Below are positions 15,062-64,000 of a stretch of 64,000 bases of DNA, one piece after another (the first letter of the stretch is position 1; every line of letters starts with the position of its first letter). Source of the DNA: Microcoleus sp. AS-A8 (GTDB taxonomy: Bacteria > Cyanobacteriota > Cyanobacteriia > Cyanobacteriales > Coleofasciculaceae); contig JAMPKV010000004.1 of assembly GCA_039962225.1 (NCBI GenBank), positions 62,001 through 126,000 of the forward strand, given 5' to 3'. Position numbers and translations under genes: made by a program. The notes under the pieces are model-generated. The model was not told where the DNA came from and did not search any database. It worked only from the letters and a program-made list of their open reading frames with translations.

Positions 15062-15190
15062 GGAAGTAATGCCTAACACCTTATTGCATTGGACGGACAA
15101 GAGTCTCAGTTATGATGCAAGTATTGTCTGCTGCCAATGAATTCAACCGTTACGATTAGTTCACGCTCAGATACAGTGGAGCTAAGCGCG

Positions 15191-17157: not shown

Positions 17158-17187
17158 TGTAATTAAAAATTACAGTCTTTTGTAAAA

Positions 17188-32500: not shown

Positions 32501-32682
32501 CTATCAACCCACCCTATGACGGGAGGGTTGATGAAACATGAGTGTGTTTTTGTCAGCGGCTATCACACGATCGCTTTCAACCCACCCTATGACGGGAGGG
32601 TTGATGAAACCTTTCTCCTTCTCTAACTCTCACAATTCCCTCGAACTTTCAACCCACCCTATTACGGGAGGGTTGATGAAAC
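32501..32682 (-). CRISPR. Three-repeat V-K CRISPR array
   Basis: Repeats of 37 bases at 32646-32682, 32574-32610 and 32501-32537 (minus strand: GTTTCATCAACCCTCCCG... GGGTGGGTTGAAAG). Spacers are 35 bases (32611-32645) and 36 bases (32538-32573). Transcription runs leftward from the tracrRNA side. The last repeat (32501-32537) has a changed 3' end (GATAG instead of GAAAG), typical of a terminal repeat; the leader-proximal repeat has one change in its centre. No cas1/cas2 is present in the window, so the array is probably static. I could not identify targets of the two spacers. Confidence 0.93.
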
Positions 32683-33271: not shown

Positions 33272-35194
33272 CTAGTTCACGGAAGTAATGCGGGTGCTGT
33301 AGGCACTAAGCGCTAAATCTCGCGCTTTTTCCTGTGGACTGCCTCGAATCGATTGTTGCCCGACTTCAATAGCAATTCCGGTTTTGGCAGCAAGGCTTTG
33401 AATGCTTTCAATTAATCTGCCGTAGCTCCAACGGTGAACGCTGACACGATACTGCTTGGCATACTCTTGCTGACCTTTCTTGTAGTTGGGAACTTTTTGC
33501 TCGGCTCTAGCTTGAACTTCACTGCTCAGGATTTCCCGTATATCACCGAGCTTGGGCAGAACAATACTGCCAGCTTGATAAGTTTTAGCGATCGCAACAA
33601 TCGCAAGAGCCAGCAGTCTGTCTACATACTGCCCTAACTCAGATTCCTTAAACTGATTGGGTTCGTGCTGTTTCTGAGCTTTGTGACGTTCGTGGGAGTG
33701 ACGTGATGAGAGCTGTCGCTGGCGGTTCAGGAGCTTATAGTTTTCACCGAGTAGCTGTTTGACACTGCGATAGGTTAGAACTTCGCCCTGTTGAGCATCC
33801 ACCACGGCTACTGTCGCTGGCTTTTCCAGACCGAGGCTAACACCGATGAGGATTGAGGGTTGACCTTGATACAAAGGCTTACTGGGACGTGGGAAGGGCG
33901 TATTAATGCGATCGAGTGTTGATTGCTTGCGTTTGACAAAAGCTTGCTGTTTATCGTCAAGCTCCCCCTTATCTTTTGTGTTAGTCAAGATTTTGGCAAT
34001 TTCAGCCGCTTTTTCGCTCTTGACCTGTTGAGTTCCCTGTGATGTCAACAGACGGGTATCCATAGAACAGTAGAGAATTAGACGATGTATGTTCCACATC
34101 AAGCCTTTCCCCTGACGTTCTTGCCAACAAATCCGTCCCGCTCTTAGGGTGAATAAGCTGCTGGAGTGTTGGTTTTTGCTGTCACGCTTGGTTTGCTGGT
34201 CTTCTAGAAAGCGTTGGAACAAATGAAGTTGACGTTGGTCGCACCATACCTCAAAGCTGTGCTTGCCCAAGCTATTGAAGCGAACGCAGATGCGCCCTTG
34301 GTCATTCTTGAACCAAATCATATCTTCACTACTTTCATAAGCCACAGGAAATGGCACAAAACTAGATTTTCTCAATAGTGCTGCCTGCCAAGCTTTTGCC
34401 TCATCTTCATCTTTAGGAACGTTGTAGATAGCCGTTTCTAATGCCTCTAGCCACTGCTCTCCAGTCAAATCTCGACCTTTGGGTATGCGACTTTTCAGTT
34501 GTTCTTTGAGGCGTTCAATTTCTATCTCTTTTGCACGCCGTCTAGTAGCAAATTTTTCTGGGTCTTCCTCAACTTCGCTGACCTGACAGTCATTTTTGAG
34601 GAGGTAGGCAAGAGAACAACGGTTGAGCGGGTCTGTACTATTTTCGTAGGCATCAAATAGAAGACTGAATAGTCTACGAGGTGCTTTATCAGCTTTGCCT
34701 TTTTTAGTCTTCTTACCCTTTTTACTGTCAGTCGGCTGATTGTGATTGAGGTCAGATGGGGTAACAAGTTGGGTCAGGAGTTCGGTAGCTTTAGCACGAA
34801 TCACATCCAGGCTAAAGTTACAGTCTTTCTCCAGTTCATCATCACTTTTGAGCATCGAAAGCCAGCGTTCTTTTCCGGATATTTGCCGCTGTCGTCGTTG
34901 CTGTAGGGCAAACCAAGATTTGTAGATGTAGTCTACAAGAGTAATGGCGGAATAGTAGAAACGACCCGGTTGACCGCTAAATCGAAGGTCGGTTTTGAGG
35001 GAGTTACACAGTGTTTTAACTAATCCAATAGGTAGCTTTCCTTTTTGTATCCATCCCTCTAGGTCAGGGTGCTTTCCTATCTGCTCCAACAATTCGTTAA
35101 TCAGCGGTGTATTTTTCTGAGTCATCAATTCCCACAGATGGCGGAGGGTTTCTTCCTTAGCAACCAGACGACATTGAATGGTGATAACACTCAT
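33272..35194 (-). CDS. cas12k: Cas12k effector (type V-K, nuclease-inactive)
   Basis: 640 residues, equal to the 639 of the Scytonema protein and collinear with it: ITIQCRLVAKEETLRHLWELM at the N-terminus, KTDLRFSGQPGRFYYSAITLVDYIYKSW, RFLEDQQTKRDSKNQHSSSLFTLR, QPSILIGVSLGLEKPATVAVVDAQ (RuvC-I, with the catalytic Asp missing as in all Cas12k), ERHKAQK, GSIVLPKLGDIRE (RuvC-II) and YRVSVHRWSYGRLIESIQSLAAKTGI. It binds tracrRNA-crRNA, recognises NGTN PAMs and recruits TniQ and TnsC. It lies just upstream of the tracrRNA and array. A TATCAGCTA box overlaps the region 6-14 nt before its ATG (see 35200-35208). Confidence 0.98.
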   Translation of the reverse strand: MSVITIQCRLVAKEETLRHLWELMTQKNTPLINELLEQIGKHPDLEGWIQKGKLPIGLVKTLCNSLKTDLRFSGQPGRFYYSAITLVDYIYKSWFALQQRRQRQISGKERWLSMLKSDDELEKDCNFSLDVIRAKATELLTQLVTPSDLNHNQPTDSKKGKKTKKGKADKAPRRLFSLLFDAYENSTDPLNRCSLAYLLKNDCQVSEVEEDPEKFATRRRAKEIEIERLKEQLKSRIPKGRDLTGEQWLEALETAIYNVPKDEDEAKAWQAALLRKSSFVPFPVAYESSEDMIWFKNDQGRICVRFNSLGKHSFEVWCDQRQLHLFQRFLEDQQTKRDSKNQHSSSLFTLRAGRICWQERQGKGLMWNIHRLILYCSMDTRLLTSQGTQQVKSEKAAEIAKILTNTKDKGELDDKQQAFVKRKQSTLDRINTPFPRPSKPLYQGQPSILIGVSLGLEKPATVAVVDAQQGEVLTYRSVKQLLGENYKLLNRQRQLSSRHSHERHKAQKQHEPNQFKESELGQYVDRLLALAIVAIAKTYQAGSIVLPKLGDIREILSSEVQARAEQKVPNYKKGQQEYAKQYRVSVHRWSYGRLIESIQSLAAKTGIAIEVGQQSIRGSPQEKARDLALSAYSTRITSVN

Positions 35195-44500: not shown

Positions 44501-44540
44501 CTGTATTAGACTCCTGAAAAAGGTACGTTTCTGTGGTTAA
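41523..44540 (+). CDS. hsdR: Type I restriction endonuclease subunit HsdR
   Basis: A 1005-residue translocase-nuclease. The N-terminal nuclease domain has PDIILFINGIPVVDIEAKTS (D...ExK). The motor has Walker A HTQGSGKSLTILFAAKKL, the DEAH box LADEAHRTQYG, FGLTGTPL and the C-terminal RecA motif VEILIVCDMLLTGFDAPIVQVMYLDKGLKAHTLLQAIARVNRPY. The C-terminal helical region binds the methylase core. Length is normal and no defect is seen. Without a working HsdM it should be unable to load on DNA. Confidence 0.95.
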   Translation: MTFNEDTTVEKELIETLQLPELSWRYENRDSVSQKYRPTNKESEVLLVPILRDKLKALNPHVITNDERANMVIDKLQRLTDNQEWIKWLRNEKTEKFAADENNENITLIDYDDDPLNNNDFLVANQFRIEGNNPRRPDIILFINGIPVVDIEAKTSSRGKVDWQEGVKQIREDYVTDIPQLYYSNAFCIAVNETRMKYGVPGTRSQDWQQWRDPSPHNHISTFDEMKCSLYGLCDRSNLLDLIRNFIVFEVDKGKTVKKIARYQQYRAANLIVERATNPSLPTSQRRGVVWHTQGSGKSLTILFAAKKLWHHPQLNQPTILIIIDREQLQDQTIGQFYSTNTENCVPAGDIPDLQAKLREDHRGVIITIINKFSGMQERNLRSNIIVLADEAHRTQYGDLGDFMRRAIPNASRFGLTGTPLELNDRNTAQTFGKEESEGEFERYMDKYGLAEAIRDQATVPIHLEPRLTKLKLWGKALDNKFEELFGDRSEQEKARLKKEGSKLKNVLLHPQRLEQITKDIADHFQQKIQPNRFKAMLVCEDKETCAVYKAALDKLLGAEASLVIVSEDPKRDKEIVKLHYLGEATRKKAIEDFKKPKPTDPEELNNQANRFKRVEILIVCDMLLTGFDAPIVQVMYLDKGLKAHTLLQAIARVNRPYNELKQHGLIVDYYGIFEKLNEALNDFDRKEIGKVVFPYKKFINQFKATIENLTNLFPDVDRAGSYNSLIEVLVFLNENEKAKEQFELGFRNARILYEAIQTDECPYSYRKEYKWLCKLYTIYRKKFYPKEPFEIDKEDGAKTVDLVRESIDVEEIQKHFPTYVLDANYLTQIKDIELDAKALEIEARLAAELTIRLDEDEDLRPLSQRLQQIIDQKRDKTIKGIAQLEELELEKINRLKELEELARQTIEVIEQRQRPINDSIINLVKKRLPNIADEQAIAVANAIVNKAETLCFPDWFKQAHMDTELYREFTRLLNAKFKNLGLHGKGKDFIDSCIRLLKKVRFCG

Positions 44541-45318
44541 ACTGAAATCACCAGAAAAGCAGCAATACAATCTCCCTAACTACTCTATCCGCGAAAGTCA
44601 AAGAGCCAAACATTTGCGCCTTAAGGTATCTATTGAAAATGGTGTAGAGGTAATTGTTCCCAAAGGCTTTGACCAAAGCCGCATCCCTGGCATTCTTCAA
44701 AAAAAACAGGTTTGGTTAGAGACAGCAGTCAAACGAATTGATGAACGGCGGCAGTTTTTTACATCAACGGTATCTAATTCTCTACCAGAGTCTATCTCAT
44801 TGGTAGCGATCGCAGAAGATTGGAAGGTCGAATATCATCAAACCTCAGCATCAAGAGTAGTTATAACCGAAAAGCCAGGTAGGCAGCTATTAGTACGGGG
44901 TAAGGTTAACGATGTAGATGCCTGTAAGCTAGCCTTTCGTCGCTGGATTTCTCGAAAAGCGCACAATCATTTAGTGCCTTGGCTGAAAGAAGTAAGCCAG
45001 ATAAATAATCTGCCCTTTGAGAAAACTCTCATCAAAGGACAAAAAACTCGTTGGGCTAGTTGTTCTCAGCACAAGACAATCAGCCTCAACTATAAACTCC
45101 TGTTTCTTCCCGCTTCTCTGGTGCATTACGTCTTTATTCATGAGTTATGCCATACCGCTCAATTGAATCATTCACGAAAATTTTGGGCTTTAGTGAACGA
45201 AAAAGAACCAAATTATAAGCAATTAAACGCTGAACTGCGAGAAGCTTGGCGCACCGTACCTTTATGGGTAGAACCACAATCGTCATTACCCAAAATCCCA
45301 ACGTGCGATTGCATCTAA
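44533..45318 (+). CDS. YgjP-like zinc metallopeptidase of the type I RM operon
   Basis: A 261-residue protein. The N-terminal beta domain (YSIRESQRAKHLRLKVSIENGVEVIVPKGF) precedes the catalytic HELCHTAQLNHSRKFW (HExxH plus a third His). It overlaps hsdR by 8 bases, starting at GTG. Genes of this family (DUF45/M48-like) are frequent fourth members of type I RM operons; a role in HsdR turnover is a plausible inference from that association. Confidence 0.9.
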   Translation: MVKLKSPEKQQYNLPNYSIRESQRAKHLRLKVSIENGVEVIVPKGFDQSRIPGILQKKQVWLETAVKRIDERRQFFTSTVSNSLPESISLVAIAEDWKVEYHQTSASRVVITEKPGRQLLVRGKVNDVDACKLAFRRWISRKAHNHLVPWLKEVSQINNLPFEKTLIKGQKTRWASCSQHKTISLNYKLLFLPASLVHYVFIHELCHTAQLNHSRKFWALVNEKEPNYKQLNAELREAWRTVPLWVEPQSSLPKIPTCDCI

Positions 45319-46229: not shown

Positions 46230-48230
46230 ATGAGCATTGATGATGAACTTCGCGAAATTCGCACAAATATATGGACTTGGGCTAGACGATGTCAGGACAT
46301 AACGCCAACGAAACTCCAAGGTGCAGTATGCAACCCGGATTATGTGAATGATGAAGGACACCCAGAAGGCAGTGGACCTGGTGTTGGAGATTCAGTACTG
46401 TTCAGCGCCATTCTCTGCTACAGCGGAGAATCGTGGGCATGTGAATCAGTCAAAAGGTCGCAGGGAGCTGATGGCAAACTGTGGCGTGCTCCACAGCGGG
46501 TTGAGCGCGATCGCGACTACCCATATATGCAAGATGGAAAGAAGAAAAACCATGCCACTTTCTCCCGTGACCATCTTCTAGGCGTTCTGTTGTGGATGGT
46601 CACAATGAAGAACAATGGACGAGGGAATGAGGCGATCGCGCTGGCAGATAAGTGGTGGAACTGGATCGCAGAAAAACGTCATAGGGAAATTCAAAAAGCA
46701 GTCAATCAGATCGCTGATACCGGGCTTCTGCGTGACCTATTCACCTCTCCTCGATCCACTCTAGATATCATACTGGGCGGTTCTGTTCCCTCAAGATATC
46801 GAATTTGTGATGGTGCAGACGATTATTGCAGCATCAGCCTAATTCCTTATGGACACTGGGGTCGTTTGATGCTAGAAGTTTGGCGTTACATTGGTGCAAC
46901 CACCAGTCTTTCCAAATCCATTGAGGTACCAATATCAATTCCCGGACTGGATCGTTCTTCGTTCTCTTTGGATTTTGACTTGAATGAATACTCAGTCTTG
47001 GACTACAACACCATCTTTCTACAAAATGATTTTGCTGGTCAGACAGGTGGTACTGGATCGGCTTTCCACGATCACTTAAATGTTGTAACTACCCTCATTT
47101 TGAGAACGATGGGAAAGTCGAATGGGCTGGCAGAAGAAACTGTGCAGGCGGTCGCTGGTCGTAATCCAAATCCATTTTTCCTATGGGCAGCGGGTAAACT
47201 TCCCGAAGCAAAAGCGAAAGCCCTAGAACTTTGCCCAAGAGAACAACCAAAGGAGATGACTCAATGGGCGTGGGAACGCGCCTACAGTGAGGAAGCTTGG
47301 AAACAATCATTTGGTTGGGATGCGATCGCAATCATCAATCTTTTGTTGGCTGATTTGACTAGCCTTCCTCATCTCGATCAAGTCGTTTCGCATGTAGATT
47401 CTCATACAGATTTCTCCCCTCGGCTCGATTTTCACAATGACGCAGTCCTTGTGCCTGCTTTAAGTAATCACTTAGATAGCCCTGCTGTTCCTGCTTTAAG
47501 TAATCACTTAGATAGCCCTGCTGTTCCTGCTTTAAGTAATCACTTAGATAGCCCTGCCGTTCCTGCTTTAAGTAATCACTTAGATAGTCCTGCCGTTCCT
47601 GCTGTCAGTAATCACTTAGATAGTCCTGCCGTTCCTGCTGTCAGTGCCCACAGTGACACCCCTGTTATTCCTGCTGTTAGAACCCACGCTGATACACCCG
47701 TCGTTCCTGGTGCGAGAGCGCATGTAGACACCCCCCGTGTAGGACATGGAGATCTACATGGTGACGCTGGACATGGCGATCTACACGGCGATCGGTTTGG
47801 ACTTAAGGTGCATACAGACACACGGGGTGGTGGTCCCCACACCGATATTCGTGGAGTCGCGCATGGCGACGCTCACACCGATACACCTTCGGTAGGACAT
47901 GTGGATGCTCACACGGACACTCCACAAGCCGGACATATTGATGCTCATACCGATACACCTTCAGCAGGACATATTGACGCTCATACCGATACACCTTCGG
48001 CAGGACATATTGACGCTCATACCGATACACCTCCGGCAGGACATATTGACGCTCATACCGATACACCTCCGGCAGGACATATTGACGCTCATACCGATAC
48101 ACCTCCGGCAGGACATATTGACGCTCACACCGATACGCCTGCCGTTCATGGGGATATGCATACAGATGTTGCTGAACACGCCGATTCACACAGTGATGCA
48201 CCTCCCACTCATCTAGATATTTCTTACTGA
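46230..48230 (+). CDS. Protein with C-terminal array of 12-residue His-x-Asp repeats (putative modified precursor)
   Basis: A 666-residue protein in two parts. Residues 1 to ~385 form a soluble domain I do not recognise (CYSGESWACESVKRSQG, FSRDHLLGVLLWMVTM). From ~390 to the end almost every unit has His-x-Asp. Block 1 has eight 12-residue units of the type LSNHLDSPAVPA. A Gly/His linker (GHGDLHGDAGHGDLHGD) follows. Block 2 has eight units ending in AHTDTP, mostly GHIDAHTDTPPA with two HxD each. The tail is HADSHSDAPPTHLDISY. The next three genes, all on the same strand with spacings under 80 bp, look like peptide-modifying enzymes. That makes the repeats candidate core peptides; metal binding is an alternative. 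Confidence 0.75.
   Translation: MSIDDELREIRTNIWTWARRCQDITPTKLQGAVCNPDYVNDEGHPEGSGPGVGDSVLFSAILCYSGESWACESVKRSQGADGKLWRAPQRVERDRDYPYMQDGKKKNHATFSRDHLLGVLLWMVTMKNNGRGNEAIALADKWWNWIAEKRHREIQKAVNQIADTGLLRDLFTSPRSTLDIILGGSVPSRYRICDGADDYCSISLIPYGHWGRLMLEVWRYIGATTSLSKSIEVPISIPGLDRSSFSLDFDLNEYSVLDYNTIFLQNDFAGQTGGTGSAFHDHLNVVTTLILRTMGKSNGLAEETVQAVAGRNPNPFFLWAAGKLPEAKAKALELCPREQPKEMTQWAWERAYSEEAWKQSFGWDAIAIINLLLADLTSLPHLDQVVSHVDSHTDFSPRLDFHNDAVLVPALSNHLDSPAVPALSNHLDSPAVPALSNHLDSPAVPALSNHLDSPAVPAVSNHLDSPAVPAVSAHSDTPVIPAVRTHADTPVVPGARAHVDTPRVGHGDLHGDAGHGDLHGDRFGLKVHTDTRGGGPHTDIRGVAHGDAHTDTPSVGHVDAHTDTPQAGHIDAHTDTPSAGHIDAHTDTPSAGHIDAHTDTPPAGHIDAHTDTPPAGHIDAHTDTPPAGHIDAHTDTPAVHGDMHTDVAEHADSHSDAPPTHLDISY
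47441..48160 (+). repeat. 36-bp tandem repeats encoding His-x-Asp units
   Basis: Two blocks share a 36-bp period. Copies within 47455-47640 and 47930-48140 are identical or differ by one or two bases, so the array has expanded or been homogenised recently. Codon choice is constant between copies. Confidence 0.9.
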
Positions 48231-48308
48231 ACTGTATGAGGTGCAATCTCTATCACTCATCCCTTGGATGTAACAGTTTCCAGGCAATTTTCCATAACAG
48301 AGTAATTC

Positions 48309-49508
48309 ATGAGCGTTGAACTTAGACCATTGGGCGTTAATTGCAATATCGCCTGCCAATACTGCTACCAAAACCCACAACGCGATGCTGGCAATCTGAC
48401 TCAGTCTTATGACCTTGAGTTGATGAAAGCAGCGGTAGAGCGTGAAGGTGGCTCGTTTATCCTCTTTGGTGGGGAACCACTGCTGCTTCCAGAACAGGAT
48501 TTGGAAGCTCTATGGGCGTGGGGATTAGAGAAATATGGTTCAAATGGTATCCAAACCAACGGAACCCTGATCAATGACAATCACATCCGCATGTTCAAGC
48601 AATATCAGGTGCAGGTTGGTATTTCTATTGATGGACCGAGTGAGTTAAATGATGTGAGATGGGCAGGCAGTTTGGAGAGAACTAGACAGCAGACTGCCCA
48701 AGTTGAAGCCGTTATTGAGCGCTTGCTGAAAGAAGGAATTGTACCCAGTCTAATCGTCACACTGCATCGTGGTAATGCCACTCCAGACAAGCTGCCCCTG
48801 ATGCATGATTGGTTCAGATCCTTGGATAGAGCCGGAATTCAATCGGTTAGATTGCACATTCTGCAAGTTGATTACTCACAAATCCAAAACAAGTATGCTT
48901 TGAGTCTCATTGAAAACATTCAAGCACTTCTCAGCTTTGCAGAATTAGAGCAAGAACTGACAACGTTGACTCCAGACGTTTTCAGAGATGTTGAGAATTT
49001 GCTGCTGGCTACTGACAATGAGGCAACCTGTGTATGGCGTGCCTGCGATCCCTACACGACCAGTGCTGTACGCGGTGTAGAAGGTAAGGGGCAGCGTAGT
49101 AACTGCGGACGAACCAACAAAGACGGTATTGATTTCGTTAAGGCGGATTCAGCAGGTTACGAGCGATATTTGGCTCTCTATCACACCCCGCAGGAATATG
49201 GCGGCTGTCAGGGGTGTCGCTTTTTTGTGATGTGTAAGGGGCAGTGTCCGGGTACAGCGATCGCGGGTGATTGGCGAAATCGGACAGAGCATTGTTCCGT
49301 TTGGAAGCAACTGTTTGAGTACCTGGAGCAGCGTTTGTTAGGTCAAGGAAAGACACCCATCTCCCTAGATGCCAACCTGCATTATTTAGAGGAGAACATG
49401 CTGGACGACTGGCAACATGGACTGAACCCTTCGTTAAACACCAAGTTGAATGAGATGCGAGCGATCGCGGCTCAGCAACCCCCCCTAACCTGTGCGCTGG
49501 AGAGTTGA
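48309..49508 (+). CDS. Radical SAM/SPASM-type maturase
   Basis: A 399-residue protein. The radical SAM cluster motif is CNIACQYC (Cys12, 16, 19), followed by GGEPLLLPEQD (binding AdoMet) and GIQTNGTLI. A SPASM-like C-terminal region (CRWACDP-type segment CVWRACDPY, then NCGRTNKDG, CQGCRFFVMCKGQCPG and EHC) should hold auxiliary clusters. This is the architecture of enzymes that crosslink or otherwise modify ribosomal peptides. The start ATG lies 78 bp after the repeat protein. Confidence 0.9.
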   Translation: MSVELRPLGVNCNIACQYCYQNPQRDAGNLTQSYDLELMKAAVEREGGSFILFGGEPLLLPEQDLEALWAWGLEKYGSNGIQTNGTLINDNHIRMFKQYQVQVGISIDGPSELNDVRWAGSLERTRQQTAQVEAVIERLLKEGIVPSLIVTLHRGNATPDKLPLMHDWFRSLDRAGIQSVRLHILQVDYSQIQNKYALSLIENIQALLSFAELEQELTTLTPDVFRDVENLLLATDNEATCVWRACDPYTTSAVRGVEGKGQRSNCGRTNKDGIDFVKADSAGYERYLALYHTPQEYGGCQGCRFFVMCKGQCPGTAIAGDWRNRTEHCSVWKQLFEYLEQRLLGQGKTPISLDANLHYLEENMLDDWQHGLNPSLNTKLNEMRAIAAQQPPLTCALES

Positions 49509-49512
49509 GACG

Positions 49513-51024
49513 ATGCAGAAATTAATTAGCTCCTCCTACGGAATTCAACGTTTGGACTTCCGTTTGCCGGAATTTACTCGCTATGCCTGGACGAGCGATC
49601 ACGCTAGGGAAGTATGGGAGCCACGAGTTCACCGCATCATTGCTGGGTTGCAAGAAGTTGAGTGGCGCTCCATCGTCCTTGGATTGCGATCGTGTGCTTT
49701 GAGAGCTGTTATGCCCGAACAGCTTTGTTCGCTGGCAGCGACGCTAGAATCCTATGGTCTGAAAGTTGAGCCACTACAGGCGATCGCAGTTACAGAAAAC
49801 TACAGTGCCTCAATGCAAGCGCCCCTGGACGGGCAGCAGTTTAGTTACTGGTCAGTTTTAGGTAGACAGGATGATATTCAACAGTTCAAACAAGCATATG
49901 AAGCGAATGACCAACCAGAAATTGGTCGGTTGTTAGGCTACCCTCCTTGCTGTACTGAATTCTTCGCTGATGTCTGGATGCACCAGGATTTTGTTGATAC
50001 AACCTGGGCAATGGCACATAAGACTCAAACGCGGGCAAGTCTCTCTCCAACGGTGATTGAAATTCCTCACGTCTCTCAAAGTAGTATGCTCCTGCGTTGG
50101 TTAGGACCTAGACAGGTGTTTCATCTGCCTTGTCGATTTGATTGCGAGGCAACAGCAGAGCTAGCCAACCGGATGGCTGAAGTCTGGCAGCAAAGTGGGT
50201 TGATTGAGGAATTGAGCTGGCTCAATGAGATGCTTCGATGGCCCGTAGAATGGTCAGCACTGCATGGGATTGCAGAAATTAAAACTCCGGTTGTGAAGAT
50301 TTCTACTCGAACTGATGCAACGGCTGAAAAATATGCTGTTCGTTACCTGGGTGACACGTATCCAAACGAGGGCGCACGAGGGCTTCATTTTCCGTATCAA
50401 CAACCCGCCAAGCGGCTAATCTCCGACAGTCAGCAATTTCGAGATGGGCTTGATAACCCAGTCAAACCCTTTCAAGACTCGTATCTGCTTACGGAATGGT
50501 ACTTCACAGATAATGGCTTTTTCTCAAAATACAGCATGGATTCTGCCCATAAACCTATTCTGGCACTGGCTCGTCAATGCTTACAGGGAGTAGCAGGCAG
50601 GGCGCTCGATCTTGGCTGTGGCAATGGAGTTCTCATGCGGAAAATTTGGCTAGAGCATCAAGAGATTGTTCCGGGAGGAGTAGATGTCGATCCAGCAAAG
50701 ATTGCTCACGCTCAAGAACTGCTGCCCGAATTCGCCAGTCACTTTGGTGTTGCGGATATGTTTGCTTCTGATGCAATCTGGAGTTCCGAACAACTGTATG
50801 CACTGGTGATTTTGATGCTTGGTCGTCTAACTGAGGTTCCCACAGAGAAAGCCAATTGGCTCTTGGAGAAGCTCCAGACTTGTACCCAACAACTGTTAGT
50901 TTATGCCTACGATGACTATTTGCGATCGCACACTTCGTTGAACCAAATGGCAACCGATTTGGGGATTGAGTTGATTGACTATCAGCCGGGTGCAACAGTC
51001 AGTCTGGCAAAAATCAACCTGTAA
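49513..51024 (+). CDS. DUF483-like domain fused to a SAM-dependent methyltransferase
   Basis: About 503 residues. The N-terminal half includes EIGRLLGYPPCCTEFFADVW (GYPPCC at 142-147), the signature of DUF483-like proteins. The C-terminal part is a class I methyltransferase (RALDLGCGNGVLMRKIWLEHQEIVPGGVDVDPAKIAHAQ). The ATG at 49513 is chosen over a GTG at 49492, which would overlap the radical SAM gene. The fusion and position suggest methylation or another tailoring step on the repeat protein. Confidence 0.8.
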   Translation: MQKLISSSYGIQRLDFRLPEFTRYAWTSDHAREVWEPRVHRIIAGLQEVEWRSIVLGLRSCALRAVMPEQLCSLAATLESYGLKVEPLQAIAVTENYSASMQAPLDGQQFSYWSVLGRQDDIQQFKQAYEANDQPEIGRLLGYPPCCTEFFADVWMHQDFVDTTWAMAHKTQTRASLSPTVIEIPHVSQSSMLLRWLGPRQVFHLPCRFDCEATAELANRMAEVWQQSGLIEELSWLNEMLRWPVEWSALHGIAEIKTPVVKISTRTDATAEKYAVRYLGDTYPNEGARGLHFPYQQPAKRLISDSQQFRDGLDNPVKPFQDSYLLTEWYFTDNGFFSKYSMDSAHKPILALARQCLQGVAGRALDLGCGNGVLMRKIWLEHQEIVPGGVDVDPAKIAHAQELLPEFASHFGVADMFASDAIWSSEQLYALVILMLGRLTEVPTEKANWLLEKLQTCTQQLLVYAYDDYLRSHTSLNQMATDLGIELIDYQPGATVSLAKINL

Positions 51025-51056
51025 TTCTTGTTCGTCCACTTTGTTAGTGACTTTCT

Positions 51057-51935
51057 ATGGAAACTGATGTTCAACTCGATCAATCTCATTTCGATGAGAC
51101 GCAAATCAATTGGGAACGAATTGCCGAACCTCAAGATGACCAGTATGATACACAGATTACGCTGGAGTATGCTCAGAGAGCAGGCTATACCCGTCGGGAT
51201 GTGGGGAATTGTCCAACCTTTTTTGACGGTCAAGTAGCGATTCGTCCAGATACAACGATTGTGTTTGCTTTGGATTGTATTCCGGCAGATCCATCTCATC
51301 CGAATGTTAGTAAAGGGAGCGACTTGTTACGTCACTGGTCTACTGTTTACGTTCAGTTCCAACAACTCGTCGATTCAGTTAGCCTCTTTTTCTACACTCC
51401 TCATTCATTTGATTTGGTTGTAGGATCGATCTGCGGTCCCGGTGGCGCTGGGTTTGGCACGATCGCTGCTACTGTTAATCACCATGTTGGATTTGCTGAA
51501 GCGTTGGTACATGAGATGGCTCATCACAAGCTTCAGGCGTTGGGCGTTCAGTTTGAATCAGCAGAACGATTAGTCACAAATCCAGCCGAACAAACATTCA
51601 GAAGCCCAATCCGCTATGATTGTCTGCGCCCGATGACAGCCGTTCTTCATGCTCAGTATTCCTATACTTATGTCTCTGCCCTGGATATCCATATCATTAA
51701 TGCTGGCACTGATGCTGAGCGCGATCGCCAAATTGCAGCAGGCTCACTTGCATGGAATCTCCCCAAATTAGAGTTTGGATTGGATGTAATCGGTAAGTAT
51801 GTCACCGTTGATGAAGCAGGTGCTGACTTTATGAAGGGGTTTTACGCCTGGTCAGAGCGCATCCTCAAAGACGGGTACAGTATTCTCGAAAGGTTCCAAA
51901 TTCCTCCTCTACAATTTGAGCATCCTCTGGTGTAG
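51057..51935 (+). CDS. HExxH-motif protein of the peptide beta-hydroxylase family
   Basis: A 292-residue protein. ALVHEMAHHKLQAL carries His152-Glu153-x-x-His156. Further on FRSPIRYDCLRPMTAVLHAQYSYTYVSALD matches the SPWR...RPL.GVLH...A pattern of the HEXXH domain family found beside radical SAM maturases. Members of that family have been described as alpha-ketoglutarate-dependent peptide beta-hydroxylases. Asp and His, the residues abundant in the repeat protein, are plausible targets. It is the last gene of the cluster, 32 bp after the methyltransferase. Confidence 0.8.
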   Translation: METDVQLDQSHFDETQINWERIAEPQDDQYDTQITLEYAQRAGYTRRDVGNCPTFFDGQVAIRPDTTIVFALDCIPADPSHPNVSKGSDLLRHWSTVYVQFQQLVDSVSLFFYTPHSFDLVVGSICGPGGAGFGTIAATVNHHVGFAEALVHEMAHHKLQALGVQFESAERLVTNPAEQTFRSPIRYDCLRPMTAVLHAQYSYTYVSALDIHIINAGTDAERDRQIAAGSLAWNLPKLEFGLDVIGKYVTVDEAGADFMKGFYAWSERILKDGYSILERFQIPPLQFEHPLV

Positions 51936-52042: not shown

Positions 52043-52429
52043 TTATTCAGCTTTCTTAGGAAATTCACACTTCACGGTGATTTCCATGTTGCAGGCACCT
52101 TTAGCGTTGGCAATGTAGGGCACTCCGGCTTCGCTGCTGATGTTGACTCCAAATTTCAGGGTGACTTCGCTGACTTCCGCGATCGCAACATTCTTAAAAG
52201 CATTTAGGGTATAGGTGGTGTATGCCCTAATGGTTTGTTCGATCGCTCGAAATGTTTGTGGGACTTGCTTGTGTGGATCGCCGATGAATACCCCACCTCG
52301 TTTAGGCTCTTCACCTCCTGTTGTCGGATTGGTGGGGACAACAACGCCGGGAGTGGTGCTGGTGTTGTCTATGGCTTCAATATAGATGGTGGCTCCGTCT
52401 TCTAGGGTGATTGGGGTAAGTTGTCCCAT
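52043..52429 (-). CDS. Trypco1-like (trypsin-co-occurring) protein
   Basis: A 128-residue protein. PITLEDGATIYIEA at the start and the pattern FRAIEQTIRAYTTYTLNAFKNVAIAEVSEVTLKFGVNISSEAGVPYIANAKGACNMEITVKCEF match Trypco1 domains. These occur next to trypsin, CHAT or other effector modules of NTP-dependent conflict systems. It is the last gene of the minus-strand module with the CHAT and WD40 proteins. Confidence 0.8.
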   Translation of the reverse strand: MGQLTPITLEDGATIYIEAIDNTSTTPGVVVPTNPTTGGEEPKRGGVFIGDPHKQVPQTFRAIEQTIRAYTTYTLNAFKNVAIAEVSEVTLKFGVNISSEAGVPYIANAKGACNMEITVKCEFPKKAE

Positions 52430-52492
52430 AGTCTTGCTTTATACCTCTGCGGTTTTTACTTTAGACAGCCTAATAACTTAGGAATCGCACTC

Positions 52493-55400
52493 TTACTTTT
52501 TGCTGGTGATGCCGCACATTTGCTTTTCACTCTCACTGGCATTTGGATTGTTGGTCAAATAGGCACGTACCCAATCACAGCCTAGCGCCATCAAGCTATC
52601 TAGATCGAAGTTCCACAATTGCACCGTATTGTCACCACCGACACTGGCAAGGGTTTTGCCATCAGGACTGAAAATCACGCTCTTGACAAATCTCTGATGT
52701 CCACTCGGGGTCTTGATTTCCCGCCCGGATGCCACATCCCACAATTGCACCGTATTGTCACGACTTGCAGTAGCAAGGATTCTGCCATCGGGACTGAAAC
52801 TCACGCTCGTTCCACTCAGGGTCTTAATTTCCTGCCGGGATGCCACGTCCCACAATCTCACCGTCTTATCACTGGCAGTGGCAAGGATTTTGCCATCGGG
52901 ACTGAAACTCACGCTCGTTCCACTCAGGGTCTTAATTTCCTGCCGGGATGCCACGTCCCACAATCTCACCGTATTGTCAAGACTAGCACTGGCAAGGATT
53001 TTGCCATCGGGACTGAAACTCACGCTCATGACAGCATTCTGATGTCCATTCAGGGTCTTGATTTCCTGTCCGGATGCCACGTCCCACAATCTCACCGTAT
53101 TGTCACCACCGCCACTGGCAAGGGTTTTGCTATCGGGGCTGAAACTCACGCTCATGACAGCATTCTGATGTCCGCTCAGGGTCTTGATTTCCCGCCCGGA
53201 TGCCACGTCCCACAATCTCACCATATCGTCAAGACTAGCACTGGCAAGCATTTTGCCATCAGGACTGAAAATTACGCTGTTGACAGGAAACTGATGTCCA
53301 CTCAGAGTCTTGATTTCCTGCCGGGATGCCACATCCCACAATCTCACCGTATAGTCATCACTACCACTAGCAAGGGTTTTGCCATCGGGGCTGAAACTCA
53401 CGTTCCTGACCAAATCCTGGTGTCCGCTCAGGGTCTTGATTTCCTGCCGGGATGCCACGTCCCACAATTTCACCGTATAGTCATCACTACCACTAGCAAG
53501 GGTTTTGCCATTGGGACTGAAACTCACGCTCGTGACAGAATCCTGATGTCCACTCAGGGTCTTGATTTCCTGCCCGGATGCCACATCCCACAATCTCACC
53601 GTATTGTCACTACCGCCACTGGCAAGGGTTTTGCCATTGGGACTGAAACTCATGCTCATGACAGAATTTTGATGTCCGCTCAGGGTCTTGATTTCCTGCC
53701 CGGATGCCACGTCCCACAATTTCACCGTCTTGTCCGAACTGGCACTGGCAACAGTTTTGCCATCGGGACTGAAACTCATGCTGATGACAAAATCCTCATG
53801 TCCGCTCAGGGTCTTGATTTCCCGCCCAGATGTCACGTCCCACAATCTCACAGTATTACCATCAATGGCAGTGGCAAGGGTTTTGCCATCGGGACTCAAA
53901 CTCACTATCCAGACATAATCCGCATGTTTATTTAGAGCCTTGATTTCCCGCCCGGATGCCACGTCCCACAATTTCACCGTGTCACCGCTGGCAGTGGCAA
54001 GGGTTTTGCCATCAAGACTGAAACTCACGCTCCTGACAACAGACGGATGCCTACCCAGGGTCTTGATTTCCCGCCCAGATGCCACGTCCCACAATTTCAC
54101 CACATTGTCATCACCAACACTGGCAAGGGTTTTACCATCGGGACTAAAACTCATGAGGGGGACAGAATTCTGATGTCCACTCAGGGTCTTAATCTCCCGC
54201 CCAGATGCCACGTCCCACAATTTCACCACATTGTCATCACTGGCAGTGGCAAGGGTTTTGCCATCAGAACTGAAACTCACGCTATTGACAGGCTTCTGGT
54301 GCTTCTCCAAGCTATTACGCTCTTGTACACCGTACGCGGCTTGCTGCAAAGCAACAGTTGCAACCAATTGTGTGTTATCCACTGCCCTAGCAGATTGATC
54401 AAGTTGTTTCAGTTGGTACGCTGCCTCCAATCCTTTCAGCAGCGCCTTAAATGGTTGTCCGGTTAAAAACAGCTCATTTGAAGTTGCGCTTTTTAAGCGC
54501 ACATCCGCCACTGTCAGTTTCAGGGTTGCCGCAGAAATTTGGATTCCAGCTAGCCAAGCCGCCCCTGCTGCTGCCGCAATTGCCACCCCTGCCACTGCCG
54601 AGGTAATCTTTCTTGTTCGTTTCCCGTGCCGGATGATTTTATCTGTCTCCTGCTGCGCGATTGTCAACCGTTGAGTGGCTGCTCGTTCTTCCGCCAAGGC
54701 AAGCTCCGCCTTTTGGTTCGCCTCGGTTAAAACTCGCTTTGCCTGTTCCTCCGCTTCCAGCTTTTTTTGAATATCTCGCTTATCGAGTTCTTGGCTTTCA
54801 GCAAGAAACTGATAGTCTTGGTCACTCAGGCTTTTTCCTGCTGCCCATGCCTGGGCTTCTTGCAGCGCCTCTCCTCGCAACAGGCGCGACTCATCCTGGC
54901 AATCCGATGCTCTCCAAGCATTGAGCGATTCTGCATAGGGGCGCAGCTCATCGAGTGCTTTATTCAACCAATCTTGGTTAAACACCGTCTCATAAATCCG
55001 GTTATAAATCCTCAGCTTGCCTTCGCGTTTGACTACCAACCCCGTTAGCCGCATTTCCATCTGCTCCGGGCTGTCATCTGCGGCAATTTCTCCCTGCTGC
55101 ACAATCTGCTGATACAACCCCAGCAATCGCCCCGTGCGCTGTTCTCCACTCAGCAACAGCCTGTCTCGAATCGTCTTCAAATGCTCCGGCGTATCCTGCG
55201 CCTCCCAGTTCTCAATTATCCTGGTAAGTACCAAATCTTCAACCCAAGCTGCCTCTTGTTCTGCTGGTGCGGTATCATCCGCACTCAAAATTAGTTTGCA
55301 GACCTTCTGGGTCAAAAACGGCTGTCCACCAGTCCAGTCCAACACTGCCTGCATCAACGCCTGGGGATTGCTCGTCTTTACAGCCAACCCCTGCACCAGT

Positions 55401-56062
55401 GGTTCTACTTCATGCAGTTGAAAGCCCGTTAGCTCAATCGGGCGACCCACATTAAACGGAGTTCGCTGCTTGTCTTGAATGAGGTCAGAAGGCGTAGCAA
55501 CACCAAGTAAGGCAAACGTCAATCGTCCGTAAATAGGCTTGTCTGCCCGTTGGTTGTAACACTCCCGAATCAGTGCAAAAAAGTCATCCAGATTGAACGA
55601 CAGACTGAGAACACTATCAATCTCATCAATAAAGATGACGATATTCTGCGAAATCGATTCCAGCAACACCTCCTCCAGAAAGGTGCCGAACCGCTGCACG
55701 TAAGACAGCAGACTGTTCTCACTCCACCAGGCATTCAAATCAAACGTGCGATGCAGCCGCAAGGGTCGGACAATCCGGTTAATCATGCCCACATACCACT
55801 GCTCCGGCGTCACCTCCGAGGTGCCAATCGCGGTAATATCGATCGCGGCACAGGCAATTCCCTCGGCCTGTAAGCGTTGCATCGTTTGCACTCGCAGACT
55901 GGACTTCCCCATCTGCCGAGAATTCAGTACATAGCAAAACTCTCCGGCTTTCAGAGCACTGTAGAGGTCATCATCCGCTTGCCGCTGCACATAAGTCGGT
56001 GCATCGATGGGAAGACTTCCCCCAACCTGATAGTCAATGGGAAACTCTGCTGCTGTACTCAT
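52493..56062 (-). CDS. AAA-like ATPase with transmembrane segment and C-terminal WD40 propellers
   Basis: 1189 residues from the ATG at 56062, whose A is shared with the upstream stop (TGATG). Residues ~15-370 are an AAA_35-type NTPase (Walker [10 protein letters not shown], Walker [10 protein letters not shown]). A coiled-coil stretch rich in Glu/Ala ([20 protein letters not shown]) follows, then a membrane helix ([21 protein letters not shown]), then about 14 WD40 blades of nearly identical sequence ([35 protein letters not shown]). The similarity between blades shows recent repeat exchange. The likely role is sensing by the propeller and NTP-dependent signalling to the CHAT protein. Confidence 0.92.
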
Positions 56063-58149: not shown

Positions 58150-58240
58150 GAAGAGATGCGATCGCTCCTACACCGTCAATACCTCCCAACTTCGACCGCA
58201 TTGCCTGCCACGCATCAATCTACTGCTGTAGTTGTTGGAT
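58150..58240 (+). repeat. Decayed segment shared with 45388-45475
   Basis: GATGCGATCGCTC, CCTCCCAACTT.GACCGCAT and GCCTGCCACGC.TCAATCT occur in both places. On the minus strand this copy has a stop codon inside the lost frame (LQQ*IDAWQAMRSKLG). It abuts the truncated metallopeptidase gene. Confidence 0.65.
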
Positions 58241-58587
58241 GCGATCGCCTGCGCCCGATTTTAAATACACAGATTGCTGCTTTTGTCAATCGTGTTGGAG
58301 CTTCTCCTCGTTCGGTTCAGGTACGCGAGTTAGGCTACCGTTGGGGTTCATGCGGACAAAAAGGAGATTTATATTTCCACTGGCGAGTGGCGATGCTGCC
58401 GCGAACCATGATTGAGTATGTGGTTGTTCACGAGCTGGTGCATCTGATTGAACCGCATCATACTACTGCGTTCTGGGATAGGGTGGAGCGGATTTTGAGT
58501 GATTGGTGCGATGCTTACGGCGGGCTTCGCCAACGTAAGCAGTGGCTAGCCCAGAATGGGGCAAGTATGACCTTTAGGGATGGATGA
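58156..58587 (+). pseudogene. 5'-truncated YgjP-like metallopeptidase
   Basis: A 143-residue frame. From ~residue 33 (RPILNTQIAAFVNRVGASPRSVQVRELGYRWGSCGQKGDLYFHWRVAMLP) it is a normal YgjP-like catalytic part with VVVHELVHLIEPHHTTAFWDRV (HExxH...H). Its first ~30 codons are instead read from the repeat at 58150-58240, so the N-terminal beta domain has been lost. It is not a copy of the gene at 44.5 kb: the catalytic sequences differ markedly. It is probably the leftover of another RM operon. Confidence 0.7.
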
Positions 58588-61199: not shown

Positions 61200-61715
61200 T
61201 CACTCAACGCGCTGCTGACGCCTAGCCATCGTAGCAAACGGCAGAGAACAACGTGGACATTCCCCTTGCACCCATAATGCAGGAATCGGGAACGGTCTCT
61301 TACAGTTAGTGCATTTTAGTAATAGGCGCAACTGGTGGCGATCGCACTTATAGGCATCCTTGAATTGCCACTCAATCCGATGACAAGGTGACTCCCCATA
61401 GCAAGCACCACATAACTTTATCGGTCTTGGGTTCATCGTTACCCCCTTTGGCTGGAGCATTTGAGCCAACCTGTCAGCATCAACCATCACCACATCTGCC
61501 AATGCCTCCAACTCCTGCCGAGAAGGAAACGGATTGAAATAGAACTTTTCCCACCGTACCAAGACTGCCCCAAGTCCTGCTACCTTACCCAACCCGGAGG
61601 GAGCCGAAAATTTATTACCCTTCGCCCGTCGAAAACGACCGAGAAAGTGACTGATGCTTTCTCCTTCGTAGGGTTCAACTCGATTAAGCCAAAGTTGTGT
61701 TTCCAGCTCATCCAT
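61200..61715 (-). CDS. tniQ: TniQ
   Basis: 171 residues, close to the 167 of the Scytonema protein. It starts at the ATG that shares its A with the tnsC stop (TAATG). Seen: RVEPYEGESISHFLGRFRRAKGNKFSAPSGLGKVAGLGAVLVRWEKFYFNPFPSRQELEALA, KLCGACYGESPCHRIEWQFKDAYKCDRHQLRLLLKCTNCKRPFPIPALWVQGECPRC (zinc sites) at the C-terminus. It joins the Cas12k complex at the target and caps the TnsC filament. A longer in-frame start at 61916 would overlap tnsC and is rejected. Confidence 0.96.
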   Translation of the reverse strand: MDELETQLWLNRVEPYEGESISHFLGRFRRAKGNKFSAPSGLGKVAGLGAVLVRWEKFYFNPFPSRQELEALADVVMVDADRLAQMLQPKGVTMNPRPIKLCGACYGESPCHRIEWQFKDAYKCDRHQLRLLLKCTNCKRPFPIPALWVQGECPRCSLPFATMARRQQRVE

Positions 61716-62554
61716 TACTTCACCGTTCTCGCTACTTGTTTCAACACTTCTGCGTCTAAAGTTTTGTATCCTTTGAGCAGTGAGCGAATCGCTGCCTTGC
61801 GTAGAATCATGTCTAAGCGACCAATCAGTCTTTTGGTTGTTTTCTTCAAAAGCTTGAGCGTTTCGCCTTTGACCAGATTTGAGGCTTCTGACATTCCCAG
61901 AACATCTCGCACCCAAATTCGTGCGATTTGTTGAAACTCCTTATCGTCTAACCTATCCAGCTCATAGCGTTCCAGAAAACGATTTTCAACCTGCTCGTCT
62001 CGCTCAACAACTCTGGTCAGTCGATTGGTAGTACCGACGAGAAGAACAGAGAGTCCCAGATTATCGTCGTCGTAGATGTGCCGCACGTCAGAAAAAGTTT
62101 CCAGCTTCAAATGATTTGCCTCATCAATAATCAACATCTGAGCCTGAAACAACTCAAGCGTGTCGAGCGTCCGTTCGCGTAAGTCTGTGATAGTTCCACT
62201 GGTGGCTCGATGTCCTAGTGCTTTGAGAATTTTGATGAATAAATCTCTTGAACCGCAGTTCTTGGGGACTTGAATATAAACTACAGGCATAACCCGCTTG
62301 CCCTTAGTTTTTGCCTGTTGATTGCAACGGTTAGTGAATGTTTTACAGGTAACGGTCTTGCCACTGCGCGATTCTCCAAGCAATAGCCCCGTCATCCGCG
62401 ATACAAGAAGTTCGTACATCCATGTATGGCATCGTTTGACATGGTCGAGTTCCAAATAAGGCGGACGACTCAACCGCTCAATTTCCGCCTGGATTTCGGG
62501 ACTCAGAGCTTGAAAATCGTCAAATTCCTGAACGCTTGATTTTGCAGTTGTCAT
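61715..62554 (-). CDS. tnsC: TnsC AAA+ regulator
   Basis: 279 residues (276 in Scytonema). Walker A is GESRSGKT (60-67), Walker B is MLIIDEANHLKLE, and the sensor regions are LSVLLVGTTNRLTRV and ENRFLERYELDRLDDKEF. It forms ATP-dependent filaments on DNA between Cas12k-TniQ and TnsB. It starts 9 bases after tnsB with GGGGG as ribosome-binding site. Confidence 0.97.
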   Translation of the reverse strand: MTTAKSSVQEFDDFQALSPEIQAEIERLSRPPYLELDHVKRCHTWMYELLVSRMTGLLLGESRSGKTVTCKTFTNRCNQQAKTKGKRVMPVVYIQVPKNCGSRDLFIKILKALGHRATSGTITDLRERTLDTLELFQAQMLIIDEANHLKLETFSDVRHIYDDDNLGLSVLLVGTTNRLTRVVERDEQVENRFLERYELDRLDDKEFQQIARIWVRDVLGMSEASNLVKGETLKLLKKTTKRLIGRLDMILRKAAIRSLLKGYKTLDAEVLKQVARTVK

Positions 62555-62563
62555 AGATACCCC

Positions 62564-64000
62564 CTAATAGTCCTCAAATAGTTCGTCCATGTACTGGACT
62601 TGATATCTCGGTAGTTCTGCCTCCAATTCTTCCTCAGCTTCCGAATCAGCTTCTTGGGGTTCAACAATCCCGAATTTCTCAGCAACGGACTGTACGGGGT
62701 TGACTAGCTCGTGAGCCGCTTTTCGGCGCTGTTGGCGGTTCCGCTTGATAGTTTTCTCTGTCCATTCCTCCCGCTCAAGCATGGCTTGAATGGTTTCACT
62801 ATTAATTTCCTCACTCGCCTCCCGCAGCCTCTTTTTGATTGCCTGATGTTCTCTCAGAGAAAGCCTTTCAACCTCTAAGCCTTGAGCGTGGGCATAATCG
62901 AGAAACTGCTCCGTGCCGTCCTCATGAACTTGGTAGACGAAGAGGGTTGTAATATCATCCGGGTCGTAGCGTAGAGCAACAACTTTTCCTTCGTGACCTC
63001 TCAGGTGTTCGGCGCGGTATGTGAGGCTTTCAAATTGAATAGTCCCGTATTTTCCAACTCTACGCCGCTCTGCCTTCATTAACGCGATCGCTAAATCCAG
63101 TTCATCGTAAAAGAGAGGCTCAATCATCAACCCAGCTTCCCAACGCTCAAACCGACTTTGGTTTTCAGACCGAGCATCAGTATGCGCGTTGTACTCTTTG
63201 ACGATGTAGCGCACGAGGATAATCTTTAACTCCAGAAGATGTAGACAAGCATCTTTGTCTACATCTTCTGGACGCTCTTGTACATTTGACCCGGTATATC
63301 CTGGTAGATTGCGTAACACTTGGTCATTGAGCGTTCTGAAGAAGCGCTCGACGATGCCGCCGTCAGATGGTCTTCTTCTTAAGGCACAACTAAAACTTAA
63401 CTGAACTGCTACTTGCTCTGTAATGTGAATGGATTGGAAATCTTTACCACCGTCAGTGTAAAAGTAATTAGGTATTCCGTATGTTCCAAATTCTGTGTCG
63501 CCAAGCCCGTATTCGGAACCGTAAGACTTCGGCAAAATGGCATGATGTAAGGCTAGGGTATCGATTTGCGAACTAGGAGCGAAAAATCCCAAGAAAAAAC
63601 CGATCAGGCAGCGAGAGTAGGAGTCGATAATCACTGTTAACCACGGGCGGTCTAAAACCCCGTACTCATCCACTATCCTGATATCGAGACGAGTATGATC
63701 GCACTGCCAAACATCATTACTCCCTTCCACCTCCAGTTCTCGCCCATCGCGGGTCATGTGTGTTAACCGTGACCCTGAGTAGCCAGGACTTCGTGCATTC
63801 CGTTTTCGCTCTTTCCCCTCAATGTATTCATCCAGAATTCGATAAACAGTCTGATGGCTAGGATACTCTTCAGGCTTTAGACCAAGCTGCTTAGCTCTCC
63901 CTTTCACCCTGAGGACTACCTGATTCCGGAGCATCCGTTTGCTACCCTGATTACCCTCCTTGTAAGTTTTAACGATGAACTCTTGCCAGTCAGCACTAAT
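62564..64000 (-). CDS. tnsB: TnsB transposase, 5' end beyond the window
   Basis: The frame stays open to 64000: upstream of the internal ATG at 63934 it reads ADWQEFIVKTYKEGNQGSKR, normal TnsB sequence, so the real start is outside. In the window: helix-turn-helix (PSHQTVYRILDEYIEGK), the catalytic DDE domain (first Asp in WQCDHTRLD, second in YTDGGKDF, Glu in GGIVERFFR), the beta-barrel (KYGTIQFESLTYRAEHLRGHEGKVVALRYDPDDITTLFVY) and the C-terminal tail (QVQYMDELFEDY) that contacts TnsC. It cuts the 3' ends and joins them to target DNA. Confidence 0.97.
   Translation of the reverse strand: MSADWQEFIVKTYKEGNQGSKRMLRNQVVLRVKGRAKQLGLKPEEYPSHQTVYRILDEYIEGKERKRNARSPGYSGSRLTHMTRDGRELEVEGSNDVWQCDHTRLDIRIVDEYGVLDRPWLTVIIDSYSRCLIGFFLGFFAPSSQIDTLALHHAILPKSYGSEYGLGDTEFGTYGIPNYFYTDGGKDFQSIHITEQVAVQLSFSCALRRRPSDGGIVERFFRTLNDQVLRNLPGYTGSNVQERPEDVDKDACLHLLELKIILVRYIVKEYNAHTDARSENQSRFERWEAGLMIEPLFYDELDLAIALMKAERRRVGKYGTIQFESLTYRAEHLRGHEGKVVALRYDPDDITTLFVYQVHEDGTEQFLDYAHAQGLEVERLSLREHQAIKKRLREASEEINSETIQAMLEREEWTEKTIKRNRQQRRKAAHELVNPVQSVAEKFGIVEPQEADSEAEEELEAELPRYQVQYMDELFEDY

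Follow-up and report, generated by a model that had tools for sequence, protein, structure and literature searches.

The triceptide precursors that are known, substrates of radical S-adenosylmethionine (rSAM) enzymes, are short peptides with few cores, and in the His-Xaa-Ser (Hxs) systems a His-based repeat protein carrying H-x-S repeats occurs with two rSAM enzymes and HxsD. Cyclophane formation and beta-hydroxylation by fused domains are reportedly combined in a further case, going by the title of a 2024 Nature Chemistry paper, the subject of which we take to be ChlB/ChlH. The rSAM enzymes characterised as three-residue cyclophane formers join the aromatic ring of residue i to the C-beta of residue i+2, and the pairs named in the relevant part of PMC11002830 are Tyr-Asp, Trp-Asn/Asp, His-Ala and His-Arg. 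In the Thermus phages Cumys and phiMa, a module of an rSAM enzyme and two unknown proteins, one with DUF483, has been noted, together with similar loci in prophages and cyanobacteria; the section on this module suggests DNA modification and does not mention repeats (PMC11437467, 2024). Here we analysed a four-gene operon at positions 46230-51935 of a 64,000-nucleotide stretch of Microcoleus sp. AS-A8 (the whole stretch is called the window). The genes, all on the plus strand, encode a protein with a tail of H-x-D motifs (HxD tail), followed by three enzymes. Judging from this operon and its relatives, the cassette likely modifies protein tails, each HxD becoming a His-Asp cyclophane that in some loci would be hydroxylated or methylated further.

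RESULTS

The HxD tail

The first H-x-D of the tail protein is at residue 381, and the motifs then run to the C-terminus. All 39 His within residues 380-666 (287 residues) stand in H-x-D, compared with a mean of 5.44 motifs (standard deviation (sd) 2.03, maximum 12) in 2000 shuffles of the tail. Tandem Repeats Finder (TRF) gave 36-bp arrays at 47454-47639, 47630-47709 and 47868-48140, and the tail is laid out as some eight 12-residue units that each hold one HxD, then an irregular stretch, then about eight units with two. The original prediction, which was made from the letters of the window, had described sixteen or more 12-residue units with one or two HxD each, and these arrays and motif counts bear it out. 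Codons vary within the motifs (His, 24 CAT and 15 CAC; Asp, 27 GAT and 12 GAC).

Linkage of the array to rSAM and DUF483-like genes

An alignment of seven rSAM sequences was scanned against viral and genome collections, and yielded 61 viral loci and 80 genome loci, the latter being the best 80 of 436. The 84 loci (cited by L numbers) with E ≤ 9e-29, 56 viral and 28 genome, were taken as the family, and the other 57 (5 + 52), which carry other or distant rSAM enzymes, served as controls. We called an open reading frame (ORF) an array ORF if it held six or more H-x-[D/N] and these took in at least 60% of its His; DUF483 and methyltransferase matches came from profiles grown on these same loci. 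Among the 84 family loci, a DUF483-like ORF was found in 77, an array ORF in 63 and an HExxH protein in 11, and these counts are not independent, since loci that are nearly identical, and both L059 and L067 from a single contig, were all counted. When only the 70 loci with sufficient flank were considered, 69 had a DUF483-like ORF and 57 an array ORF (44 of 46 viral and 13 of 24 genome loci), whereas in the controls the values were 1/57 and 0/57. In 60 of 63 loci the strongest array ORF was upstream on the strand of the rSAM, and in 55 of 63 it was at most 1 kb away, with a median rSAM-array gap of 49 bases as measured between stop-to-stop frames. The search for co-occurrence of the enzyme families with HxD tails, which the original prediction had proposed, thus found the rSAM, DUF483-like gene and array linked, with HExxH in a minority only. 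Because the array accompanies the rSAM in distant loci, is conserved in its H and D (see below) and is absent from the 57 controls, the neighbouring enzymes very probably have the HxD tail as their substrate. The hydroxylase and the methyltransferase, the latter detected as a domain in 49 of 84 DUF483 ORFs (42 of 52 viral and 7 of 32 others), are optional and not core. DUF483, in turn, is near-universal in the family and therefore probably takes part in the core step.

Of the 13 well-flanked loci lacking an array ORF, eight were read by eye. Five of the 13 (L085, L086, L088, L089 and L098) have a large neighbouring protein with a short H-x-D or H-x-K end. The giant Fulvivirga protein beside the rSAM (L089:4832-7972) ends in seven H-x-K, not H-x-D; Lys at i+2 is known from other rSAM-crosslinked peptides. 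Linkage was also examined in reverse, with a DNA pattern for (HxDx)4 in viral contigs, some of them the same as in the forward scan, and at least 120 loci were obtained (24 dense, 20 mid and 76 sparse). An rSAM was present in the locus for 15 of the 24 dense arrays, and for one more (L181) elsewhere in the same contig. Seven of the nine dense arrays without an rSAM in the locus were read; L157, L228, L245 and L255 were judged on reading to be simple repeats or wrong-frame, and L166 and L226 were assigned likewise on the ground that their counts match L157. For the 20 mid arrays, one had an rSAM in the locus and L193 had one elsewhere in its contig; six were read, of which the five besides L193 resemble simple repeats or wrong-frame readings.

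Several loci have features of their own. At least four H-x-[D/N] occur in 40 of 84 family rSAM ORFs, counted over whole stop-to-stop frames (for example L010:9977-11227, L011:7977-9425 and L097:7998-9296), and in those read the H-x-D motifs are C-terminal, as if the enzyme modified itself. A Nitrospinaceae locus (L077:1-7952) has three consecutive array ORFs, one of them a stand-alone HxD protein of 264 residues, and at one Bacteroidetes locus (L119:1-3811) an HExxH gene and two DUF483-like ORFs lie next to a different rSAM. Within cyanobacteria, the rSAM was found at E ≤ 1e-60 in two of 386 genomes, one being the window's own. In a cyanobacterial relative (L009, genome G027, 8000-18500), the rSAM and DUF483-like genes are flanked by coiled-coil-like proteins with THDQ repeats, by a piece that by eye resembles a lectin, by a protein of 2144 aa and by what is left, a short remnant, of the N-terminal domain seen in the window.

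Motif rule and selection

For the motif, we used 70 distinct array regions (74 ORFs and 14,251 residues before copies were removed). Among 2276 cases, Asp occupies His+2 in 88% and Asn in 8%, figures that are partly circular because array ORFs were picked for HxD, and His stands two before E, Q, S or T in under 1%. The choice of regions bears less on the following observations. Looking back from Asp, an aromatic residue is found at D-2 in 89%, compared with 7-9% at D-1, D-3 and D-4. Moreover, Tyr/Phe/Trp-x-[D/N] was observed 309 times against 191 (sd 11.5) after shuffling, and in ten arrays chosen as rich in other aromatics D or N occupies +2 of 68/95 Tyr, 30/47 Phe and 62/80 Trp. Pro is nearly absent at x (0.2% versus 4.6% overall), and the spacing from motif to motif is irregular (5, 3, 4, 6, 7). 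The motif is aromatic-x-(D/N), with His as the main aromatic and Tyr, Trp and Phe also used, and it is this three-residue unit that is conserved, not the repeat period. The earlier suggestion that His and Asp are the only regular reactive residues is too narrow for the family, where Tyr, Trp and Phe stand for His and Asn for Asp.

Selection was tested by pooling 16 of 19 related-array pairs with identity above 0.55 (three pairs are identical and several share a member). Amino acid changes were seen at 16 of 568 H (2.8%) and 19 of 567 D/N sites (3.4%), compared with 142 of 564 x sites (25%) and 377 of 1896 others (20%), while synonymous change was similar at H, D/N, x and other sites. This pattern indicates that the array H and D/N are under purifying selection in relatives and that x is free. 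The array, the enzyme families, the gene linkage, the motif rule and this selection in relatives are all read from sequence.

The enzymes of the operon

The CX3CX2C motif is present in 76 of 84 family rSAM ORFs, and the rSAM adjoins the gene of the proposed substrate; the cysteine pattern of the window rSAM is one that we take to be SPASM-type. All seven family rSAMs match the DynA, YhhB, sulfatase maturase, AmcB and XyeB models of NCBIfam; YhhB, AmcB and XyeB among these are cyclophane formers. Against solved structures, the rSAM profile matches ChlB at 8e-17, and a profile of eight HExxH partners matches ChlH at 3.5e-4, whereas a PDB sequence search with the HExxH protein alone, without a profile, gave nothing useful. 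H152, E153 and H156 of this protein are invariant across eight aligned sequences. In the fusion protein, the DUF483 match is weak (17.6 bits, under the 25-bit cutoff of PF04467), with relatives on either side of the cutoff (L029, viral, 32.4; L022, 26.8; L062, 24; L013, 16.7 bits), and the methyltransferase part matches PF05175 with 26.1 bits (cutoff 23). The DUF483 cysteines C146, C147, C207 and C211 (counting from 49513) are present in 49-52 of the 52 sequences and could form a metal site. An AlphaFold model of the fusion is confident (mean predicted local distance difference test (pLDDT) 92.5, predicted template modelling score (pTM) 0.68), and in fold searches of two libraries methyltransferases dominated the 50 matches listed, among which the DUF483 domain itself was not recognised. 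The three enzyme types originally assigned (radical SAM/SPASM, DUF483-like/methyltransferase fusion and HExxH beta-hydroxylase-like) therefore agree with the profile matches, that of DUF483 being below its cutoff.

The N-terminal domain

The domain in front of the tail was found in two of 386 cyanobacterial genomes, namely the window's own and one with a short fragment containing stop codons. Relatives stand alone on Paraburkholderia and Sinorhizobium plasmids and start in a signal-peptide-like manner (by eye), and the 18-19-kb plasmid stretches around them gave no DUF483, HExxH or HxD-array match; a PDB sequence search with the domain yielded nothing useful. On the two genomes and the stand-alone plasmid relatives, this domain was rejected as the part that defines the system. 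It had been regarded as a dedicated 385-residue leader, a view that finds no support, given that relatives occur alone and that relatives of the enzymes use quite different scaffolds. The original prediction also held that homologues of the repeat protein occurring consistently without the enzymes would speak against a ribosomally synthesized and post-translationally modified peptide (RiPP); such homologues exist for the N-terminal part, on the plasmids, but not in general for the tail.

Viral and bacterial settings

A search with the window rSAM found two haloarchaeal plasmids and, via one of them, the Thermus phages Cumys, phiMa and phiLo; in these plasmids and phages a DUF483-like gene is beside the rSAM. 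The gene directly upstream in Cumys and phiMa encodes 54 and 53 H-x-D, respectively, and in Cumys it comes after annotated baseplate and collar-fibre genes. Halomicrococcus has the same gene set after tail and baseplate genes, and in three of four loci the genes upstream of the array gene fall in tail-fibre or host-specificity families of PHROGs (L063, L037 and L095; none in L013). Where neighbours were examined, the viral array gene is mostly among tail genes, and from this position the array protein would be expected in virions.

Arrays are carried by several unrelated scaffolds. Viral arrays follow a 95-residue domain with a triple GSxWxEG (25 aligned) or form the C-terminus of long proteins; the GSxWxEG domain gives an all-beta model (pLDDT 94), and a fold search with it returned no PDB match at E ≤ 0.001. 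The array proteins searched in Pfam (L095, L010) and PHROGs (seven viral) fell in no family of known function except for L064, whose long N-terminal part matches a virion-protein family of PHROGs, and L022 weakly matches a family of unknown function. In bacteria, a protein family of roughly 900-1600 aa serves as scaffold in Myxococcota, Actinomycetota, Nitrospinota, SAR324 and Bacteroidota (eight related by BLAST), to which the 2144-aa protein of G027 had no BLAST match. Other bacterial scaffolds are a Tat-signal-like protein (L082, by eye), other small proteins and the 380-aa domain of the window, and short array ORFs of 70-120 aa occur at some genome loci (L075, L078, L079). In a quick rSAM tree, midpoint-rooted and labelled by source collection, 26 bacterial sequences including the window formed one supported set beside many viral branches, and six other 'cell' rows, which may be proviruses, fell among viruses. 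The tree fits, at this level, one take-over by bacteria.

Transposon context and other cargo

The operon lies between Cas12k with its adjoining CRISPR repeats (32574-32682) and the TniQ, TniB/TnsC and Mu-type transposase genes, and is therefore cargo of a Cas12k (type V-K) CRISPR-associated transposon (CAST), as had been stated from the start. The same cargo includes an adjoining type I restriction-modification set with a YgjP-like metallopeptidase (38094-45318), the gene of the latter being about 0.9 kb upstream of the operon, and a second, partial YgjP-like gene (58156-58587). On the minus strand beside the operon (52043-56110), a protein with Trypsin-co-occurring domain 1 and a large one in which WD40-like repeats were seen by eye are perhaps another cargo system.

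Table 1. Features of the operon and of the surrounding transposon, in window coordinates
Feature	Position	Strand	Basis or remark
HxD-tail protein, 666 aa, proposed substrate	46230..48230	+	ORF and motif counts
N-terminal folded domain, about 380 aa	46230..47369	+	relatives stand alone on two proteobacterial plasmids; without Pfam match
C-terminal tail, 39 H-x-D, about sixteen regular 12-residue units	47370..48230	+	TRF and motif counts
Radical SAM enzyme, proposed i to i+2 crosslinker	48309..49508	+	PF04055, 59 bits; CX3CX2C at C12, C16, C19
DUF483-like domain (GYPxCC ... PCxxxC) fused to class I methyltransferase	49492..51024	+	alternative start: later ATG at 49513
aKG-HExxH-type peptide beta-hydroxylase family protein (HEMAH)	51057..51935	+	TIGR04267, 69.6 bits (cutoff 40)
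Cas12k, one side of CAST	33272..35194	-	968 bits
TniQ, TniB/TnsC, Mu-type transposase (TnsB position), other side of CAST	61200..63934	-	profile matches

DISCUSSION

In the model that we propose, the rSAM/SPASM enzyme would work along the tail and join the His imidazole to the beta carbon of the Asp at i+2, with a loss of 2 Da per motif for each three-residue cyclophane. The DUF483-like domain, as the near-universal partner of the rSAM, would provide substrate binding or a second step, and the methyltransferase and the HExxH oxygenase would be optional tailoring enzymes that methylate and beta-hydroxylate the same residues. An array of such strained small rings may turn the tail into a stiff, protease-resistant rod or tether, and the same cassette would act on tail-tip proteins of phages and on large proteins of bacteria. 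What we infer here is that the enzymes act on the tail, as well as the exact bond, the order of the steps and the mechanical role; the aromatic-x-D/N motif agrees with the i to i+2 rule of the triceptide enzymes.

Besides the circularity of the His figures, several points weigh against this model. The best solved matches of the rSAM profile are sulfatase-maturating enzymes, ahead of ChlB, and the window rSAM is below the cutoff of every NCBIfam model listed, its best models being DynA and sulfatase maturase. No substrate was recognised in six of 24 well-flanked genome loci (L090-L093, L096 and L099, of which L091, L093 and L096 were not read by eye), the well-flanked viral loci L014 and L019 have no array ORF, and in a Halorussus stretch (L007) with rSAM and DUF483-like genes no array was found. 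Conversely, two array-bearing virus records (L258, 18.9 kb; L239, 17.6 kb) are without an rSAM, and both may be fragments. It is unlikely, though worth consideration, that the enzymes act on the aromatic-x-D/N tail by something other than cyclophane formation, such as oxidation, epimerisation, another linkage, or aspartimide or ester chemistry that the methyltransferase would initiate. In favour of this, the rSAM also stands near sulfatase maturases and PapB, and most viral DUF483 ORFs carry the methyltransferase domain; however, an aromatic residue two before Asp or Asn is the cyclophane rule and is not needed by these chemistries, and 10 of 52 viral and 25 of 32 other DUF483 ORFs have no detected methyltransferase domain (separate genes were not sought), so that a core role for it is improbable.

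Dense His and Asp are typical metal ligands, and a tail so dense in both could be an unmodified or lightly modified metal-binding array, with the enzymes loading or protecting the metal. We consider this very unlikely, because Tyr, Trp and Phe, with the +2 spacing unchanged, take the place of His and Asn that of Asp, mostly poor ligands, and because the linkage to a radical SAM enzyme would be left unexplained. A conventional RiPP, in which proteolysis would free the tail as a bioactive peptide or bacteriocin, is suggested by the enzyme types, which are those of RiPP clusters, and by the 70-120-aa array ORFs; but there is no transporter or protease among the four genes of the operon, the arrays of relatives belong to tail-cluster proteins or to the 900-1600-aa proteins, and, as regards a leader/core scheme, the N-terminal domain of the window also occurs without a tail. 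We give this explanation equally little credence. That the rSAM/DUF483 module modifies DNA, as proposed for the Thermus phages, would fit the homologues near deazapurine DNA-modification genes of cyanobacteria that are mentioned in the module section (PMC11437467). The linkage of array to rSAM, on which we ruled this candidate out, together with the selection on the HxD tail and the resemblance of the rSAM to peptide maturases, makes it extremely improbable. Cyclophane formation on the tail thus remains the reading that we prefer.

Taking the settings together, we lean with moderate confidence towards a virus-borne system of protein stiffening, in which tail-tip proteins of bacterial and probably archaeal viruses would be stitched by tens of cyclophanes (up to about 90 motifs per protein) written by rSAM and DUF483; bacteria would have taken it over, perhaps once, for large proteins, and one copy would have become mobile with a CAST. 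rSAM cyclophane chemistry is familiar from natural products that are small peptides, and tens of motifs per protein would make it a modification of structural proteins, pointing to a little-known chemical stiffening of viral and bacterial proteins. DUF483, a family without known function, gains a testable role, and would, if the model is true, represent a new class of partner for radical SAM enzymes that act on peptides. The potential use would be a means of making protein tails rigid that is genetically encoded and programmable through the repeats.

Comparison with known systems

With the Hxs systems, the locus shares a His-based repeat protein with an rSAM, but it is not a member, as the operon has one rSAM and an H-x-D motif; the HxsB model is matched at E ≤ 1e-10 by one of seven family rSAMs, which is not the window enzyme. 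ChlB and ChlH are remote homologues of the rSAM and the HExxH protein of the window, respectively; by the title cited at the outset theirs are fused domains, whereas the window has separate genes and a DUF483-like/methyltransferase protein in addition. The triceptide enzymes (XncB, OscB, YxdB, HaaB, YhhB) are likewise SPASM rSAMs that use an aromatic residue at i and, at i+2, commonly N, D, K, R or S, and several such models are matched by family rSAMs in NCBIfam. By the cutoffs given above, the window enzyme does not belong to a named cyclophane-forming rSAM family, and the window family differs from the triceptides in having tens of motifs in larger proteins and a DUF483 partner. Among the matches listed from open-licence PMC papers, and in passages of PMC11437467, PMC11002830 and PMC12633501, no description of HxD tails or of rSAM-modified phage tails was found.

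The Thermus phages Cumys and phiMa have the same rSAM (54% identity between window and Cumys), a DUF483-like neighbour and, as third gene, an HxD array; no HExxH match was found in their 21-kb and 17-kb stretches, and their DUF483 ORFs gave no methyltransferase match. The combination had been called unrecognised in the original prediction. This is not wholly so, since the module of rSAM, DUF483 and a further unknown gene is noted in the module section of PMC11437467, with possible DNA modification as its reading and without mention of the repeats. The published phage module can hence be re-read: its third gene encodes an aromatic-x-D/N array, and this finding, together with the motif rule, the evidence that the motif is under selection and the change of mechanism that results, is what is new.

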